This document shows positions 2,390-16,170 of a DNA stretch of 33,229 nucleotides, in pieces. The first letter of the stretch is position 1; each line of letters opens with the position of its first letter. A program made the position numbers and the translations under genes. Source of the stretch: an uncultured Clostridia bacterium (GTDB taxonomy: Bacteria; Bacillota; Clostridia; Oscillospirales; Acutalibacteraceae); the NCBI GenBank assembly GCA_947630285.1, contig CANRHD010000021.1, positions 1 through 33,229 on the forward strand, in the 5' to 3' direction. A model generated the notes under the pieces. It was not told the DNA's origin. It ran no database searches and saw nothing but the letters and a program-made list of their open reading frames with translations.

Positions 2390-2418
2390 TTGACACAGAC
2401 GCTTCTTTGTGCTAAAAT
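2390..2418 (+). promoter_or_regulatory. Promoter of the T-box operon
   Basis: TTGACA (2390-2395) and TAAAAT (2413-2418) are spaced by 17 bp. Transcription should begin near 2425, just before the first helix of the T-box leader. Confidence 0.8.
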
Positions 2419-2424
2419 TACCGC

Positions 2425-2690
2425 ACATATTAAAAATGCAATGAAGGAACTAATCGTTCTCCTCACTTCATTTCAGAGAGCCGCCGTTCGGTGAAAGGCG
2501 GTATGAACGGAAAACGAGCCTCATTCTCGAGCAGAGCCGCGGAAATCAGTAAGCGGCTACGGCTTGCCCCGTTACCATGGCAGGAGATTTGTTGGAATCT
2601 CGCAGAGTGGGTTTGAGCAATCAAGCCAATTAGGGTGGTACCACGGAAATTTTCGTCCCTGAAATCTTAGGATTTCGGGGATTTTTTTAA
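2425..2690 (+). promoter_or_regulatory. T-box riboswitch, probable leucine specifier (CUC)
   Basis: The leader has the standard T-box parts. Stem I shows AGAGAG (2475-2480) and the GGTGAAA apical motif (2490-2496). The conserved T-box AGGGTGGTACCACGG lies at 2632-2646, and a terminator hairpin (arms near 2656-2666 and 2671-2681) is followed by seven T. The specifier loop region (about 2515-2532) contains CTC followed by the expected purine and then TTCTCGAGC. CUC reads as a leucine codon, and the TGGT bulge fits a tRNA with discriminator A, as tRNA-Leu has. Uncharged tRNA-Leu would therefore allow read-through into the downstream operon. The T-box itself is certain. The specifier was chosen by eye; AUU (Ile) is the main alternative but lacks the following purine. 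Confidence 0.93.
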
Positions 2691-2714
2691 CTTGAATTAA
2701 AAGGAGAGAAAGTA

Positions 2715-4094
2715 ATGAAAAAAATCAGCATTGCAGACACAACCCTTTGTCGTGAGGACAGTACATTCGCTTTTAAGGAGAAAATTGAAATCGCACGCCA
2801 GTTGGAAAGGCTGAATGTTGACATCATTGAATTGCCCGAGATTAAAAATGCGAAAACCGATGTTTTGCTTGTGCGTACAATTTCATCGTTTGTAAAGGAC
2901 AGCCTTTTGTCCGTTGCGGCAGGCGTTACGGCGCAGAGCATAGACGATGCGGCGGAGGCTCTTCAGGGCGCCGCACACGCAAGGATAAGAATAGAACTGC
3001 CGGTTTCTCCGGTGGGAATGGAATACACCTGTCACAAGAAAGACGAAAAAATGCTCGCCTGGATTAAAACAGCGGTGGAGAGCGCAAAGCAAAAGGTTCA
3101 AAGCGTTGAGTTCTGTGCGGCGGACGCTACAAGGGCCGAAAAGGAATTTTTAATAAAGGCTGTCAAAACGGCGGTTGAGGCCGGCGCAGATTGCGTTTCC
3201 GTTTGCGACAGCGCAGCGTCAATGCTCCCCGACGACTTTGCCGATTTTGTTTCGGAGATTTTGGAGCAGATAAGCGTGCCGCTCGGCGTTAAGTGCAGTA
3301 ACAAGAACGGCTTTGCCGAGGCGCAGAGCATACTTGCCGTGCGCAGGGGCGCAGACGCAGTAAAAACGGCGGTCGGCGGCGAAACATCTTCGCTTGAAAC
3401 CTTTGCCGCAATGATAAAAAACTGCGGCGACAATTACGGCTTCTGCTCGTCTGTACGCTTTACCGAGCTTAACAGAATAGCAAAGCAGATTAATTGGGTA
3501 ACGGAAAACGCCAAGAACGAAAAAACAAGCGTCACCGTAAGCAGCGTAAACGAAAAGGTGCTTTTAGACAAAAACGACGATGAAACCGCCGTAAGAGCGG
3601 CAGTTATAAAAATAGGCTACGACCTGTCGGACGAAGACTTTGTAAAGGTTTATGAGGAATTTCAGAGGGTCGCAAGGAAAAAGGCGGTTGTCGGCGCAAA
3701 GGAATTGGACGCAATAGTCGCTTCCGTTGCATTACAGGTTCCCTCTACATATAAGCTCATAAGCTATGTAATCAACAACGGCAATATAATGACCGCCTCC
3801 GCTCACATCACACTTGAAAGGGACGGCAAGACTATGGAGGGCATTGAATTGGGCGACGGCCCCATCGACGCCTCGTTCATAGCTATAGATAAAATTACCG
3901 GCCATCATTATGAGCTTGACGATTTTCAAATTCAGGCGGTTACCGAGGGCAAGGAGGCCATGGGCTCCGCTCTTGTAAAGCTCCGTGCAGGCGGCAAGCT
4001 GTACTCCGGCAACGGAATTTCAACCGATATTATCGGCGCAAGCATCAGGGCATATATCAGCGCATTAAATAAAATTGTTTACGAGGAGGCATAA
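2715..4094 (+). CDS. 2-isopropylmalate-synthase-like protein with leucine-regulatory domain and altered active site
   Basis: A 459-residue protein with the LeuA/HMGL-like TIM barrel (about 1-270), a linker, and a complete LeuA allosteric domain (about 330-457; GDGPIDASFIAID, FQIQAVTEGKEA and GGKLYSGNGISTDII are visible). In true 2-isopropylmalate synthases the first strand reads DTTLRDGEQ and the metal is held by that Asp plus HxH in HCHND. Here the first motif is DTTLCREDS, so the substrate Arg is Cys12, and HCHND is KCSNK (Lys193, Ser195). The FSxEDA(S/G)R glutamate is Ala and GERAGN is GGETSS. Catalysis of the usual acetyl-CoA condensation is therefore unlikely, while leucine sensing may persist. 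AGGAG precedes the ATG. The next gene starts 3 nt after the stop. Possible roles are a leucine-sensing subunit, an altered lyase or aldolase, or a scaffold. Confidence 0.85.
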   Translation: MKKISIADTTLCREDSTFAFKEKIEIARQLERLNVDIIELPEIKNAKTDVLLVRTISSFVKDSLLSVAAGVTAQSIDDAAEALQGAAHARIRIELPVSPVGMEYTCHKKDEKMLAWIKTAVESAKQKVQSVEFCAADATRAEKEFLIKAVKTAVEAGADCVSVCDSAASMLPDDFADFVSEILEQISVPLGVKCSNKNGFAEAQSILAVRRGADAVKTAVGGETSSLETFAAMIKNCGDNYGFCSSVRFTELNRIAKQINWVTENAKNEKTSVTVSSVNEKVLLDKNDDETAVRAAVIKIGYDLSDEDFVKVYEEFQRVARKKAVVGAKELDAIVASVALQVPSTYKLISYVINNGNIMTASAHITLERDGKTMEGIELGDGPIDASFIAIDKITGHHYELDDFQIQAVTEGKEAMGSALVKLRAGGKLYSGNGISTDIIGASIRAYISALNKIVYEEA

Positions 4095-4097
4095 GCC

Positions 4098-6620
4098 GTG
4101 AAATTATCATTTTCAACCAAGGGCTGGCACAACAATTCGTTTGAGGAATTTTGCGACATTGCTCAGGACTTAAAATTTCAGGGGATAGAGCTTCATAACA
4201 TTCACAACCGTTTGTTTACCGAAAAAGACGGGGCTTTCCACGATTACACGGCGGCGGCCACGCTTCGCAATCTTTACGAGAGAAAGCTGGAGCTTACCTG
4301 CATTGATACAATTTGCGATATTTCCGACAGCGCTAACGAGAAAAGCACTCTTGAGGAAATCGAAAAGTGCATTGAAATCGCAAAAAATCTCCATATACCT
4401 TACATAAGGCTCCGTGCAGGTGCGGAATATAACGAGGAGAATGCCGAAACCGTTTGCGCATTGCTTGAAAAGGTTATATCTGCGGCGGAGGAAAACAAGG
4501 TTACGCTTTTGCTTGAAACTTCGGGTATGTTCTCAAACACCGCAAACCTCCGTGATATGCTTGAGAGATTTGCCTGCGACAATCTTGCGGCGCTCTGGAA
4601 TGCGTCTGCGGCGTATTTTACCGCCGGCGAAAAGCCTGAGGAAATCATCAAAAACCTCGGCGCATATGTGCGCCATGTCCATATCAGCGACGCCGCCATT
4701 GCGGACGGAAAGCTTGAATACCGTCTTATAGGCGAGGGCGAGCTTCCGCTTCTTGATATGATGCTTGCGCTTCGCTCGGTAAATTACGACGGCTTTATTT
4801 CGCTTGTTTGGGACCCTGCATGGTGCGAAGAGCTTGACGATATGGAAATCATCTTTTCCCAGTTCGTAAACTATATGAAGCAGTTTACGGCTATTTCGAG
4901 AAAGGAAAAGACCCTTTTCTCAAACAACGCCCACACCGGCAAATTTGTTTGGAAAAAGGAAACCCTTATAGACGAAACCTTTTCACAGGTGCTTGACAGA
5001 ATGGTTGAGGAATTTCCCGACCAATACGCCTTTAAATACACGACCCTTGACTATACCCGTACATATTCGCAGTTCCGTGACGATGTTGACGAATTTGCAA
5101 GGGTGCTTATATCAATGGGTGTTAAGCCCGGCTCGCATGTGGCTATTTGGGCGTCCAATGTGCCGCAGTGGTACATCACGTTTTGGGCTTCGGTTAAAAT
5201 CGGAGCGGTACTCGTAACGGTAAACACCGCATATAAAATTCACGAGGCCGAGTACCTTTTGAAGCAGTCGGACACCCATACCCTTGTTATGACCGAGGGC
5301 GCAAAGGATACGAATTACGGCGAAATAGTTGCCGAGCTTTGCCCCGAGCTTCAAAATACAAAACCGGGTTCGCCCCTGCACAGCAGAAGGCTTCCGTTCC
5401 TCAGGAATGTTATTACCGTCGGCTTCCGTCAGAAGGGCTGTCTTGAGTGGAGCGAGGCTCTTGAAAGGGCTTCGCAGGTTCCGCTTGACGAGGTTTACAG
5501 GAGGGCGGCAAATGTCAACCATGACGATGTGTGCAATATGCAGTACACCTCGGGTACAACCGGCTTCCCCAAGGGAGTTATGCTCACCCATTACAATATA
5601 GTCAATAACGGTAAATGTATCGGCGACAGAATGGATCTTTCGACCGCCGACCGTATGATGATTCAGGTGCCGATGTTCCATTGCTTCGGAATGGTTCTCG
5701 CCATGACCGCCACCATGACCCACGGCGGCACTATACTGCCTATTCCGTACTTTTCGCCGAAGCCGTCGCTTGCCTGCATCAACAACGAGCATATCACGGC
5801 TTTCCACGGCGTACCCACCATGTTTATTGCAATGCTTGAACACCCCGATTTCCCGAAAACGGATTTCTCGTACATGAGAACGGGCATTATGGCAGGCAGT
5901 CCCTGCCCCATTTCCGCAATGCAGGATGTTGTAAACAAGATGAACATGAAAGAGATTACCATTGTTTACGGCCAGACGGAGGCTTCGCCGGGCTGTACCA
6001 TGAGCTCTACGGACGATTCCATAGAGGTTCGTGTTTCAACGGTCGGCAGACCTCTTCCCGAAATTGAATGTAAAATAGTTGACCCCGAAACGGGCGAGGA
6101 TTGTCCGGACAATGTGACCGGCGAATTTGTGGCGAGGGGCTACAACATTATGAAAGGCTACTACAAAATGCCCGAAGCTACCGCCGCCGCAATAGACAAG
6201 GACGGCTGGCTTCACACGGGCGACCTTGCCTGCCGTACAGAGGAGGGTAACTATAAAATTACGGGCCGTCTTAAAGATATGATTATCCGCGGAGGCGAGA
6301 ATATTTACCCCAAGGAAATCGAGGAGTTTATTTACACCAACCCCAAGGTAAGCGATGTTCAGGTAATAGGCGTACCCGACGAGCAGTACGGCGAGGAAAT
6401 TATGGCCTGCGTAATCCTCAAGGAGGGCGAAACTATGACCGAGGACGAAATGAAACAGTTTGTCGCCGCCTCCATGGCACGCCATAAGGTGCCGAAATAT
6501 GTTGACTTTGTCGATTCGTTCCCGATGAACGCCGCAGGTAAGATACTTAAATATCAGATGCGTAAAGACGCAGTTGAAAAACTCGGACTTCAAAAGGCTG
6601 ACAGTGTGGAAACGGCATGA
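4098..6620 (+). CDS. Fusion: sugar-isomerase-like TIM barrel + acyl-CoA synthetase (AMP-forming)
   Basis: An 840-residue two-domain protein with a GTG start behind GAGGAGG. Residues 1 to about 265 resemble the xylose-isomerase-like/AP-endonuclease-2 barrel (KGWHNNSFEEF, GIELHNIHNR, LLLETSG, HVHISDA). Of the four usual metal ligands, Glu140 and a His (193/195) are present, but the usual Asp is Asn168 and the usual last Glu appears to be Val237. Residues from about 280 form a full ANL-family adenylate-forming enzyme: YTSGTTGFPKG (from 483), YGQTEASP, GWLHTGDLA, GRLKDMIIRGGENIYP and the catalytic Lys motif NAAGKILKYQM. It should activate a carboxylic acid as acyl-AMP and then acyl-CoA. The overall fold resembles medium-chain acyl-CoA ligases, but the substrate is unknown. 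The following gene overlaps it by 4 nt (ATGA), so the two are translationally coupled. Confidence 0.88.
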   Translation: MKLSFSTKGWHNNSFEEFCDIAQDLKFQGIELHNIHNRLFTEKDGAFHDYTAAATLRNLYERKLELTCIDTICDISDSANEKSTLEEIEKCIEIAKNLHIPYIRLRAGAEYNEENAETVCALLEKVISAAEENKVTLLLETSGMFSNTANLRDMLERFACDNLAALWNASAAYFTAGEKPEEIIKNLGAYVRHVHISDAAIADGKLEYRLIGEGELPLLDMMLALRSVNYDGFISLVWDPAWCEELDDMEIIFSQFVNYMKQFTAISRKEKTLFSNNAHTGKFVWKKETLIDETFSQVLDRMVEEFPDQYAFKYTTLDYTRTYSQFRDDVDEFARVLISMGVKPGSHVAIWASNVPQWYITFWASVKIGAVLVTVNTAYKIHEAEYLLKQSDTHTLVMTEGAKDTNYGEIVAELCPELQNTKPGSPLHSRRLPFLRNVITVGFRQKGCLEWSEALERASQVPLDEVYRRAANVNHDDVCNMQYTSGTTGFPKGVMLTHYNIVNNGKCIGDRMDLSTADRMMIQVPMFHCFGMVLAMTATMTHGGTILPIPYFSPKPSLACINNEHITAFHGVPTMFIAMLEHPDFPKTDFSYMRTGIMAGSPCPISAMQDVVNKMNMKEITIVYGQTEASPGCTMSSTDDSIEVRVSTVGRPLPEIECKIVDPETGEDCPDNVTGEFVARGYNIMKGYYKMPEATAAAIDKDGWLHTGDLACRTEEGNYKITGRLKDMIIRGGENIYPKEIEEFIYTNPKVSDVQVIGVPDEQYGEEIMACVILKEGETMTEDEMKQFVAASMARHKVPKYVDFVDSFPMNAAGKILKYQMRKDAVEKLGLQKADSVETA

Positions 6621-7423
6621 TTAATTCAGAGTATTACGCAATAGACGCCCATTGCCATGTTTATCCCGATAAAATAGCTTTAAAGGCGGCGGGCGCAACT
6701 GATAAATTTTATAATGTCACTTCCTTTGCGGACGGCACCATAGGTATGCTTCTTGAGGAGGGCGGCAAGGCAGGAATAGATAAGTTTGTCGTTCAGTCCG
6801 TTGCAACAACGCCCAAGCAGGTTGCAAGCATAAACAAATTTATTGCACAGTCCGTTGAAGAAAGCAACGGTAAGCTTGTCGGCCTTGGAACGCTCCACCC
6901 CGACAGCGAAACTATGGCAGAAGATGTGCAGAATATAATCGACCTCGGGCTTCACGGAGTAAAGCTCCACCCCGATATACAGAATTTTAAGGTTGACGAT
7001 TACCGCTGTCTTAAAATTTATGAGCTGTGCGAAAAGGCAGGGCTTCCCATTCTTATGCACACGGGCGACAAACGCTATGACAACTCAAACCCGAACAGGC
7101 TTATACCTATTTTGGAGATTTACACAAATCTGACCGTCGTGGGCGCACATTTCGGCGGCTGGTCAATTTGGGAGGAGGCGTCAAAGCAGTTGGCGCATAT
7201 CCCGAACCTTTATGTTGACTGCTCGTCAAGTATGTATTGGCTCGACGCCGAAAAAACGGTGGAGATTATCCGCCGCTACGGTGCGGACAGAGTGCTTTTC
7301 GGCACGGATTACCCCATGTGGTCGCCGCAGACAGAGATAGAAAAGTTTATGGCGTTGGGGCTTACCAAAGAGGAAAACAGGAAAATTCTCTCCGAAAATG
7401 CGAGAAAGGTTTTCAATTTCTGA
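6617..7423 (+). CDS. Amidohydrolase-2 (ACMSD-like) family metal-dependent hydrolase/decarboxylase
   Basis: A 268-residue cytoplasmic TIM-barrel enzyme. All expected metal and catalytic residues are visible: HxH at His12/His14 (DAHCHVYP), His148 (LMHTGD), His178 (GAHFGGW) and Asp231 (FGTDYP); GTLHPD and VKLHPDIQ are also typical. Relatives of this subfamily decarboxylate or hydrolyse ring-type or beta-keto-like carboxylates, ACMS decarboxylase being the namesake. Its start overlaps the stop of the ligase-fusion gene, which places it as the last enzyme of the T-box operon. A plausible reading is that it acts on the acid or product handled by the ligase, but the substrate cannot be read from sequence. 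A GC-rich hairpin follows at 7446-7470. Confidence 0.88.
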   Translation: MINSEYYAIDAHCHVYPDKIALKAAGATDKFYNVTSFADGTIGMLLEEGGKAGIDKFVVQSVATTPKQVASINKFIAQSVEESNGKLVGLGTLHPDSETMAEDVQNIIDLGLHGVKLHPDIQNFKVDDYRCLKIYELCEKAGLPILMHTGDKRYDNSNPNRLIPILEIYTNLTVVGAHFGGWSIWEEASKQLAHIPNLYVDCSSSMYWLDAEKTVEIIRRYGADRVLFGTDYPMWSPQTEIEKFMALGLTKEENRKILSENARKVFNF

Positions 7424-14907: not shown

Positions 14908-16170
14908 TTATCGGGAATTAATACCGACAACCAGCGCCAATATGCCCTTTGCGTCTGAAATTGTAATCTCAAGATCGCCGTTGACATCGGCCTTTGAAGC
15001 CTGGTCGCTGTTAAAGGTTCTAATCTTTACGATGCTCTGCAATACCCATTTGGCGTCTACTATGGTAACCTCGCCGTCTCCGTTGACATCGCCGGGCATA
15101 TTAAGATATACGGAGGGGTCGTAAACATATTTTGAAGAACTCATCTGCGGATATTTAAGATAGGTATTTTTAAAGCGGTCGCCGACCGGGTCGTGCGTTC
15201 TTGAGAAAGCGTAGCCGTCGCTGTCCCTGGTCTGCGAACCTGCAAGGAAATAATCGTAACTCGGCAGGGAGCCCGGAATATCGTCCCATGTAAGGTCAAC
15301 AGCATACCATTTTCCGTCCTCCATTTTCACATAGTTCCAGGTGTGGCCCTCCTTTATAATTAACAGCCCGAAAATATCGGGGGAATATCCGTAGCCGGTG
15401 ACAACTATGCAGGGAATACCGTACCTGTCGCAAATCATTTTAAAGGCCTTTGCATACCCGTCGCAAACCGTCTCGTACGGCGAGAGCAGGGCGCTTGAGG
15501 GATAAAAGATTTTTGAGTTCACGGCGGAAACTGTGCTGTTTAAATTTTTGCTGTAGCTTGCACGCTGAGCAAGCTTATCGTGAATACTCTTAACCCTCTC
15601 GTAGCGGTTGTTGCCCGAAATTTTAAAGGAATTTACGGCGTTGAGAAGATTATTGTATTCTTTCTCGATTTCTTTCCAATTCTTATATGGGAGCTGTGAC
15701 ATATCCGTTTTAAGCTCCAATCGGCCGCCGGCGCCGTAGTATTCAACCTTAAACGGAGCGTTCAGAAGCCATTGGTATTCCGGCTTGTCGTCCGAAAGTG
15801 CGGCACAGGCGTAGCACACGGCGGTAGCAATGGCGCTTTCGCTTAAATTTTTGCCGTATGACGACATATTGATTTTTATTGTACCCCGGGGCGAGCTCGT
15901 AAGCCCTGCATTGTCGCTTTCAAGCTGTCTGTATATCGCCTTTGCGTCGTTGGGAATGGAGTCGTACAGCTTGTAGCCCGTTCCCAAAGCGTATTTTGCG
16001 GCGCTTTCATAGCCCCCTGCCGCATATTTTTTAACGAGCATATCCTTGGATACGCCCTCTATTTCAAACGATAAGGTCTTTTCGCCGTCCGAAGCGTAAG
16101 CCGCCGTCGAAAATACCGAGCAAATCATAACAAGAGCCAATACTATGCTCAAAACTCGTTTCGCTTTCAA
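14908..16170 (-). CDS. Secreted transglutaminase-like protein with C-terminal dockerin
   Basis: A 420-residue protein with a signal peptide (MKAKRVLSIVLALVMICSVF, cleavage likely after AYA near 26). The transglutaminase-like core has the Cys-His-Asp triad at Cys236 (TVCDGYAKAF), His276 (EGHTWNYV) and Asp292 (AVDLTWDD). The C-terminus (about 359-418) is a type I dockerin with two calcium-loop repeats, DVNGDGEVTIVDAK and DVNGDLEITISDAK. It is therefore exported and probably attached to a cohesin scaffold or the cell surface. The core may be a peptidase or a cross-linking enzyme; these bacterial forms are mostly uncharacterised. Translation starts at TTG 16170, eight bases after AAGGAGG; the nearby ATG is out of frame. 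It is monocistronic. Confidence 0.9.
   Translation of the reverse strand: MKAKRVLSIVLALVMICSVFSTAAYASDGEKTLSFEIEGVSKDMLVKKYAAGGYESAAKYALGTGYKLYDSIPNDAKAIYRQLESDNAGLTSSPRGTIKINMSSYGKNLSESAIATAVCYACAALSDDKPEYQWLLNAPFKVEYYGAGGRLELKTDMSQLPYKNWKEIEKEYNNLLNAVNSFKISGNNRYERVKSIHDKLAQRASYSKNLNSTVSAVNSKIFYPSSALLSPYETVCDGYAKAFKMICDRYGIPCIVVTGYGYSPDIFGLLIIKEGHTWNYVKMEDGKWYAVDLTWDDIPGSLPSYDYFLAGSQTRDSDGYAFSRTHDPVGDRFKNTYLKYPQMSSSKYVYDPSVYLNMPGDVNGDGEVTIVDAKWVLQSIVKIRTFNSDQASKADVNGDLEITISDAKGILALVVGINSR

Follow-up and report, generated by a model that had tools for sequence, protein, structure and literature searches.

A leucine T-box operon with a LeuA-like pseudoenzyme and a fused acyl-CoA ligase: a probable route from isovalerate to leucine in uncultured Clostridia

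The window (the whole analysed stretch of 33,229 nucleotides from an uncultured Clostridia bacterium) contains one promoter-like site, one T-box leader and three close-packed genes, ORF1 to ORF3 (Table 1). When the window was searched with covariance models, RF00230 was the sole Rfam match above the gathering score. All of these elements had been reported in the first-pass annotation and were found again, together with the 3-nt gap and the 4-nt overlap (ATGA) between the genes. At the sequence level the leader holds a leucine specifier, an antiterminator motif and a terminator hairpin (z -2.7; equal stability in 1 of 200 shuffles), and it is predicted to be the leucine-responsive switch of the three-gene operon. 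Its canonical structure, CUC specifier and terminator/antiterminator are those of Leu-specific T-box riboswitches, whose target genes differ from those found here.

Table 1 Features of the operon in the window
Feature	Position	Strand	Score or basis
Sigma-70-type promoter-like site, TTGACA-17-TAAAAT	2390..2418	+	direct reading
T-box leader, RF00230	2432..2663	+	132.6 bits (gathering score 93), E 1.6e-29
Specifier codon CUC (Leu; CTC in DNA)	2520..2522	+	direct reading
T-box antiterminator motif AGGGTGGTACCACG, UGGN-type, tRNA 3'-end binding	2632..2645	+	
Intrinsic terminator, hairpin 2657-2680 followed by T-run	2657..2688	+	downstream of T-box
ORF1, putative LeuA-derived pseudoenzyme: degenerate DRE-TIM barrel and conserved LeuA regulatory domain	2715..4094	+	
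ORF2, xylose-isomerase-like TIM barrel fused to AMP-forming acyl-CoA ligase	4098..6620	+	
ORF3, Amidohydro_2 metal-dependent hydrolase, accessory	6617..7423	+	121 bits

Nine other T-boxes of the same genome, outside the window and contig C28, served as a control for the reading of specifiers, with their genes named by eye. Seven of the nine precede genes of evident specificity and were read correctly. The specifier before an asparagine-synthase-like gene was read one base off, and a Trp T-box precedes a transporter, where the specifier was not checkable. In relatives, a motif search upstream of ORF1 yielded 100 leaders. A first automatic reading of these gave 69 CTC, 14 TCC and others, taking the wrong triplet at leaders with a second GAG further on; when the rule was tightened and re-run, 98 of the 100 read Leu (94 CUC and 4 CUG; two are truncated and unreadable), or 90 of the 92 distinct leader sequences.

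The first-pass annotation had named a gene order unique to this strain as the outcome that would speak against it. In the gene-neighbourhood comparison the order was widely conserved, and the unit T-box(Leu)-ORF1-ORF2 was observed within the class in no fewer than 17 families, and outside it in two genomes. The scan of relatives covered the 80 top-ranking ones out of 587 or more, and all 80 are MAG or uncultured records. A T-box lies upstream of ORF1 in all 19 loci L002-L020; none was recognised at L087 and L126, and by Rfam search L153 and L169 had no T-box hit, while L167 had none next to ORF1. In the phylum survey, 4 of 398 genomes including our own matched at 1e-120, and the two from outside the class both carry the unit (T-box and codon read by eye); at L176, a locus from this survey, the ORF2 ligase reaches the contig end. 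The class survey gave 22 matches, of which G116 and G194 were rejected as carriers and moved out of the operon-positive count, being true LeuAs beside ilvC-like genes, while G126, a contig-end fragment, was counted as positive without reading of its surroundings.

ORF1 (459 residues) shares the fold and the HMGL-like (113 bits) and LeuA_dimer (105 bits) domains of LeuA, yet falls below the curated LeuA equivalog cut-offs (284 vs 532 and 257 vs 599 bits). Compared with two true LeuAs of 514 and 517 residues, it matches at 32% in the barrel and 37-41% in the regulatory domain. Those references keep the Asp and HxH positions, which we take to be the catalytic and metal-ligand residues of LeuA. 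In contrast, among the 110 rows of the ORF1 alignment (109 distinct) the catalytic Asp is present in none (2 gapped), the first metal His in none and the second in 2. The first-pass annotation had described two TIM barrels with altered active sites, and for ORF1 this holds in every aligned homologue. The regulatory domain is the better conserved part, with 39 of 134 columns conserved at 95% or above, the barrel having 23 such columns out of 255. The overall fold compares with full-length LeuA at a TM of about 0.53 (query-normalised, high rmsd) and the barrel with catalytic-domain structures at 1.8-1.9 A; a PDB sequence search with the regulatory domain alone gave insignificant matches. Whereas LeuA goes with leuBCD, ORF1 adjoins an acyl-CoA ligase gene. 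The first-pass view of the LeuA-type domain as a leucine sensor is plausible, the catalytic site being lost and the regulatory domain conserved, and we put the chance that ORF1 senses leucine at the protein level at about even.

It is unlikely that ORF1 has kept or gained catalysis of an aldol or Claisen type, which would leave the operon product unspecified as in the first-pass annotation. The conserved barrel columns speak for it, as do the residues M102, E103, Y104, E132, D137 and R140, which are invariant in both smaller alignments; the chemistry may be metal-independent, and the Arg of the LRDG motif is kept in 12 of 110 rows. However, the catalytic Asp and the two His positions are occupied by many different residues, which suggests loss of function and not re-specialisation, and the recognisable linked genes (see below) belong to branched-chain amino-acid metabolism.

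ORF2 consists of an N-terminal TIM barrel (approx. residues 1-270; AP_endonuc_2, 77 bits) and a ligase (approx. residues 290-840; AMP-binding, 314 bits, and AMP-binding_C, 68 bits). In its alignment of 99 rows (98 distinct) the ligase P-loop YTSGTTGxPKG is conserved throughout and the C-terminal catalytic Lys in 98. The metal site of the isomerase-like domain, as placed by aligning it with a solved relative, reads E-N-H-V in the window; 30 of 99 rows keep all four ligands (E-D-H-E). Thus the second altered barrel of the first-pass annotation is altered in the window but not family-wide. In this lineage the function of the domain is probably docking or structural. The ligase scored under the cut-off of every NCBIfam model listed (25 of 111 matched). 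Best among those listed was PRK12583 (694 vs 832 bits), which describes a subfamily of fatty-acid CoA ligases. The substrates of the solved relatives of the ligase are varied. From the gene context, the substrate is likely to be isovalerate.

In the case of ORF3, the metal ligands (HxH, H, H, D) are intact in 61 of 61 rows (60 distinct), so that both the ligase and the amidohydrolase are intact, as had been claimed. The Amidohydro_2 family stood as well, but the label ACMSD-like did not extend to ACMSD itself, since no NCBIfam model, of ACMSD or another named family, matched at 0.001; the best solved relative is the uncharacterised BB4693. ORF3 was rejected as a pathway-defining gene because 14 of the 59 named loci long enough to include it lack it, and because 16 of 21 operon-negative members of the genus have a general paralogue (33-37%).

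In many relatives the operon stands near genes for VorBAC (branched-chain 2-oxoacid:ferredoxin oxidoreductase) and a branched-chain aminotransferase, together with XRE-cupin-AMP ligases whose leaders are Ile or Val T-boxes. VorA was found within the fetched flanks of 32 of 80 named loci; where at least 8 kb lay upstream, it was found in 25 of 47 loci, the fetched flanks of the other 22 having no VorA. ORF1 follows ilvE or vorC in L082, L090, L101, L104, L120, L122, L123 and L167 (in the last after a 16-nt gap), and no T-box was recognised in between at these loci; in L168 the order is ORF1-ORF2-ilvE-ATPase-vor. In the genome under study vor and ilvE lie on contig C28, separate from the operon contig, and none was seen in positions 1-284 of the window translated in three forward frames. 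VorB of this genome scores 538 bits and its VorA is identical to that of the nearest relative, in which VorB and IlvE score 541/399 and 482/307 bits.

Classical leucine biosynthesis was ruled out genome-wide on leuB, ilvC and LeuA_dimer, in agreement with the earlier statement that the operon is not leucine biosynthesis. In this genome (99.2% complete) the only LeuA_dimer match is ORF1, no leuB exceeds the cut-off (best 151 vs 353.2 bits) and ilvC has no match at 1e-10. Among 59 relatives, leuB was found in 1 of 20 operon-positive vs 32 of 39 operon-negative genomes (p 8e-9) and ilvC in 2 of 20 vs 30 of 39 (p 9e-7), and in a class sample of 196 genomes leuB in 4 of 20 vs 119 of 176 (p 5e-5) and VorB, common regardless (129 of 196), in 20 of 20 vs 109 of 176 (p 2e-4). 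All of these p-values overstate the significance, since members of one clade do not count as independent genomes. The ilvC contrast was not significant outside the genus (1 of 5 vs 9 of 18, p 0.34). Nor is the operon strictly a replacement: the two surveys together gave 39 distinct genomes with the operon, and 5 of these (G001, G082, G090, G127 and G160) also have leuB.

Three features point to leucine as the end product, by way of isovaleryl-CoA and 2-oxoisocaproate: the VorBAC/IlvE linkage, the parallel ligases under Ile and Val T-boxes, and the fact that leuB and ilvC are scarce in carriers. The first-pass annotation had an unknown acid or acyl-CoA made or salvaged when tRNA-Leu is uncharged; the acyl-CoA and its timing remain plausible, while the product no longer seems unknown. 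Isovalerate is an acid released by other microbes. The host, related to gut Clostridia, has apparently lost the standard route to leucine, and we consider it quite probable that the operon serves to make leucine from isovalerate. When leucyl-tRNA is low, uncharged tRNA-Leu (GAG anticodon) would bind the CUC-specific T-box and transcription would read through. The ORF2 ligase domain would convert isovalerate to isovaleryl-CoA, VorBAC, a 2-oxoisovalerate-type ferredoxin oxidoreductase presumably working toward carboxylation, would reductively carboxylate this to 2-oxoisocaproate, and IlvE would transaminate the product to leucine. ORF1 would most likely bind leucine and inhibit or gate the ligase, as end-product feedback on the bypass pathway, with ORF3 as an accessory hydrolase. 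Both leucine binding and an ORF1-ORF2 contact are putative, and the fuller version, a LeuA pseudoenzyme kept solely for its allosteric site that sits on the isomerase-like domain, binds leucine and feedback-inhibits a dedicated isovalerate:CoA ligase, is a tentative proposal with somewhat less than an even chance. Neither ORF3 nor the isomerase-like domain has a role in a minimal isovalerate pathway, which counts against the proposed route from isovalerate to leucine.

A supply of isovaleryl-CoA primer for iso-branched fatty acids, with leucine control reflecting the loss of leucine-derived primer, would also employ such a ligase; branched short-chain acyl-CoA synthetases supporting branched fatty-acid synthesis exist in S. 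aureus (PMC10026030), and the subfamily of PRK12583 would agree with it, albeit below cut-off. We regard this as improbable, since the linked genes are vorBAC and ilvE, leuB and ilvC are missing in most carriers, the Ile- and Val-T-box ligases fit amino-acid supply, and inspection of the neighbours' N-termini by eye revealed no gene of fatty-acid synthesis. Degradation of leucine to isovalerate for energy is very improbable: VOR enzymes are reversible and also serve amino-acid fermentation, and VorB is widespread in the class sample, but a Leu T-box turns genes on at leucine scarcity, an ATP-consuming AMP-forming ligase points to activation, and most carriers are missing leuB and ilvC.

A route from isovalerate to leucine is known in rumen microbes (PMC7356843; PMC10658910), and branched short-chain fatty acids have been recognised since the 1960s as growth factors of rumen bacteria and leucine precursors (as cited in PMC7356843). 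The activation, reductive carboxylation and amination proposed here are those of the isovalerate carboxylation of Allison and co-workers in rumen bacteria (cited in PMC7356843), and the genome has genes for an acyl-CoA ligase, a VOR and a branched-chain aminotransferase, as such a route would require. Many operon carriers likewise originate from the ruminant gut, judging by record titles. What would be added is a candidate genetic basis, namely the T-box operon, the fused isomerase-ligase and the LeuA pseudoenzyme. Searches of open-access papers listed no description of this gene set and no gene set for the isovalerate step, and a term search of the main text of a T-box survey (PMC2494555) gave no match to AMP-binding, acyl-CoA, ferredoxin, fatty acid, amidohydrolase or CoA ligase. 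If true, the fuller version describes a replacement leucine pathway with two leucine controls, one on RNA through the T-box and one on protein through leucine itself, and a case in which the recruitment of a pseudoenzyme as metabolic sensor can be tested. The operon would also predict cross-feeding from protein fermenters, and its T-box mark would allow isovalerate-dependent leucine makers among uncultured gut Clostridia to be recognised from sequence.

As a whole, the operon is likely the leucine arm of a system that turns scavenged branched short-chain fatty acids into branched-chain amino acids; the T-box-controlled ligases beside vorBAC would serve the parallel arms, from 2-methylbutyrate to Ile and from isobutyrate to Val. 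Leaders were read for 46 of 48 XRE-cupin ligases (22 Ile, 23 Val and one TTG, a misread with GTA at a second anchor). Of the Val- and Ile-T-box ligases of this genome only the former was queried against solved structures, and its closest relative was 3ETC (604 bits), the 2-methylbutyryl-CoA synthetase Macs of Methanosarcina acetivorans, which prefers 2-methylbutyrate (PMC10455477). The Ile/Val-T-box ligases carry HTH and cupin domains, and the ORF2 ligase is closest to another subfamily, PRK12583-like.

All elements placed by the first-pass annotation (a promoter-like site, the T-box and three genes) were found where it had put them, and the 3-nt gap and 4-nt overlap claimed between the genes are both present in the sequence.

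Features of the operon and nearby genes in the window
Feature	Position	Remark
T-box	2432-2663	132.6 bits (gathering score 93)
Specifier codon	2520-2522	CUC
Terminator hairpin, then T-run	2657-2680	3' of the T-box
ORF1	2715-4094	HMGL-like and LeuA_dimer domains
ORF2	4098-6620	AP_endonuc_2 TIM barrel fused with complete AMP-forming ligase
ORF3	6617-7423	Amidohydro_2 protein
GH36 alpha-galactosidase gene	285-2363	immediately upstream of the operon
Transglutaminase-like secreted protein	14908-16170	- strand; two C-terminal dockerin-like repeats (by eye)

When 59 relatives were searched at 1e-10, ORF1 matches were observed in 30 (own genome counted). Twenty of these contain a full-length match (41-100 % identity), with both ORF2 domains downstream in 20/20; the remaining ten matches (1e-11 to 1e-37) were classed collectively as true LeuA or related synthases. 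Among named contigs (the best 80 of at least 587 relatives), the ligase is present in 76/80 loci and the isomerase-like domain in 78/80, the exceptions (L109, L119, L142 and L143) being contig ends. Every one of these best 80 is metagenome-assembled or uncultured, many are from ruminant or deer gut, and their record titles read Clostridia, Clostridiaceae, Clostridiales, Eubacteriales, Eubacterium, Oscillospiraceae, Ruminococcaceae, Ruminococcus, Lachnospiraceae and Bacillota. In the class sample, 22/196 genomes matched at 1e-80: two matches are true LeuAs, one is the window's own, one is a fragment left unfetched, and all 18 others, each with its surroundings fetched, hold ORF1-ORF2. The 59-relative and class surveys combined place the operon in 17 families of the class. 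A phylum sample matched at 1e-120 in 4/398 genomes; two lie outside the class, and both have a Leu T-box just 5' of ORF1 (by eye).

Rfam placed a T-box 5' of ORF1 in the window, in 19/19 of loci L002-L020 and in L168; it gave no T-box match in L153 or L169, and the sole match in L167 is situated elsewhere. A simple motif detected T-boxes in 68/80 named loci (best 80 of at least 587). In seven of the 12 motif-negative loci ORF1 comes straight after ilvE or vorC, two are truncated, L113 has a T-box seen by eye, and L087 and L126 show none. A hairpin-like sequence (by eye) precedes ORF1 in 3/7 of the loci behind ilvE or vorC: L082, L090 and L104 carry a G+C-rich one, followed by T's, between ilvE and ORF1, with no recognised T-box, and this is possibly another attenuator. 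The specifier was read as the codon six bases 5' of the conserved (G/T)AG, a rule tightened once after its first version misread many leaders. A Leu specifier was read in 98/100 motif-found ORF1 leaders (94 CUC, 4 CUG; two cut off), drawn from 117 loci with some genomes entering twice via two collections, and in 90/92 distinct leader sequences. Nine other own-genome T-boxes served as a control. Seven precede genes of evident specificity (by eye) and were all read correctly (Tyr, Asn, Cys, Trp, Phe, Val and Thr); one before an asparagine-synthase-like gene was one base off, and the ninth adjoins a transporter gene downstream.

In G001, the nearest relative, whose ORF1 is 95 % identical, the locus runs from an XRE-cupin-AMP ligase and an ATPase through vorB, vorA, vorC, ilvE and a GH36 galactosidase to the T-box and ORF1-ORF2-ORF3. 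VorB (541/399 bits) and IlvE (482/307 bits) passed their NCBIfam cut-offs there, and the two remaining Vor subunits fell under theirs. The own genome carries matching vor/ilvE genes on contig C28, with an identical VorA. Positions 1-11000 of C28 (L066) encode two HTH-cupin-AMP-ligase proteins, followed by an ATPase, a 75-residue ferredoxin-like ORF ahead of vorB, VorBAC and IlvE. Each ligase has its own T-box in front; of the two, only one exceeds the gathering score of 93 (99.6 and 81.8 bits), and their specifiers read GUA for Val and AUC for Ile. This gene set is a parallel Ile/Val salvage operon. Of 48 such ligase leaders across loci, 22 have an Ile and 23 a Val specifier, one was misread and two could not be read. 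Among solved structures, 3ETC is the best match to the Val-T-box ligase (604 bits); an excerpt of PMC10455477 gives 2-methylbutyrate as the preferred substrate of 3ETC. VorA was found in the fetched flanks of 32/80 named loci (best 80 of at least 587); where at least 8 kb upstream was available (n=47, same set), it was present in 25 and absent from the fetched flanks in 22. The gene set is constant and its order variable: ORF1 starts 16 nt after ilvE in L167, and L168 reads ORF1-ORF2-ilvE-ATPase-vor.

Classical leucine genes were also compared. Among the 59 relatives, leuB (over cut-off) is present in 1/20 operon-positive and 32/39 operon-negative genomes, and ilvC in 2/20 and 30/39. Within the genus, the figures are 1/15 versus 20/21 for leuB, the lone operon-negative member without it (G012) having it as a contig-end fragment, and 1/15 versus 21/21 for ilvC. 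Outside the genus, leuB is found in 0/5 versus 12/18 (p 0.014) and ilvC in 1/5 versus 9/18 (p 0.34, not significant), the Fisher p-values treating genomes as independent and ignoring shared ancestry. In the class sample, operon-positive genomes have leuB in 4/20 versus 119/176 of the rest, and VorB in 20/20 versus 109/176. When 25 genomes were searched for LeuA_dimer, the single own-genome match was ORF1. Five carriers (G001, G082, G090, G127 and G160) have leuB alongside the operon, which can therefore coexist with the classical route. In G001, another LeuA_dimer protein besides ORF1 is encoded close to leuB and ilvC at about 5-11 kb of contig C9, a possible re-acquisition.

Because of the vor/ilvE and Ile/Val ligase neighbours, the pathway of the operon can be named. 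Most simply, carriers would produce their leucine from isovalerate, the substrate we infer for the ligase. Uncharged tRNA-Leu would turn the operon on, the ORF2 ligase would act on isovalerate as the first step, VOR would then perform reductive carboxylation, and transamination would be the final step to leucine. Isovalerate-to-leucine chemistry is known in rumen microbes, according to excerpts of PMC7356843 and PMC10658910; for Prevotella, an excerpt of PMC7709123 describes conversion of branched acids to amino acids as unproven yet theoretically possible through ferredoxin oxidoreductase.

The ORF1 alignment consists of 110 rows, 109 of them distinct (the window was entered twice). At the Asp, His and His positions, which we take to be catalytic in LeuA, Asp is kept in 0/110 rows (two gapped), the first metal His in 0/110 and the second in 2/110; the neighbouring Arg is kept in 12/110. 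The lost positions are occupied by many different residues, and two true LeuAs used for comparison keep all four residues. Mean identity to the window is 73 % in the regulatory domain and 54 % in the barrel, with 39/134 and 23/255 columns, respectively, reaching 95 % conservation or more. LeuA structures, leucine-bound and 2-oxoisocaproate-bound entries among them, were the best matches to the fold predicted for ORF1 (mean pLDDT 86.6, pTM 0.60; domain orientation uncertain). Judged from its sequence, ORF1 is a pseudoenzyme whose regulatory domain still looks functional; it is a probable protein-level leucine sensor and would presumably bind leucine. New here are the candidate gene set and its regulation for an isovalerate route, and the LeuA pseudoenzyme as probable leucine sensor; among the matches listed by partly broad searches of open-access literature, the operon is undescribed.

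Conservation is highest in the ligase domain of ORF2, with a mean identity of 81 %, against 55 % for the isomerase-like domain. The latter has diverged about as much as the ORF1 barrel, which is compatible with, and no proof of, the ORF1-ORF2 contact that we infer. Its model (pLDDT 93.3) resembles sugar isomerases, epimerases and AsbF. The four metal ligands are intact in 30/99 rows and lost elsewhere in several ways, so catalysis by this domain seems dispensable in the window's lineage. ORF3 metal ligands are complete in 61/61 aligned rows, and the gene is present in 45/59 named loci with room for it (from the best 80 of at least 587). Among 41 genomes searched, close ORF3 orthologues (at least 62 %) were found only in operon-positive ones (13/15 in the genus, plus G049), and 16/21 operon-negative genus members have a 33-37 % paralogue. 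On this distribution, ORF3 seems to be an operon-specific version of a general amidohydrolase. Another amidohydrolase of the ORF3 type, 36 % identical, is encoded at G000:C1:200296-201093, and most same-genus genomes searched have this second type.

The GH36 gene upstream of the operon in the window has a counterpart in G001, between ilvE and the T-box. Elsewhere in the window, the dockerin-like repeats of the transglutaminase-like protein suggest a cellulosome-type system.
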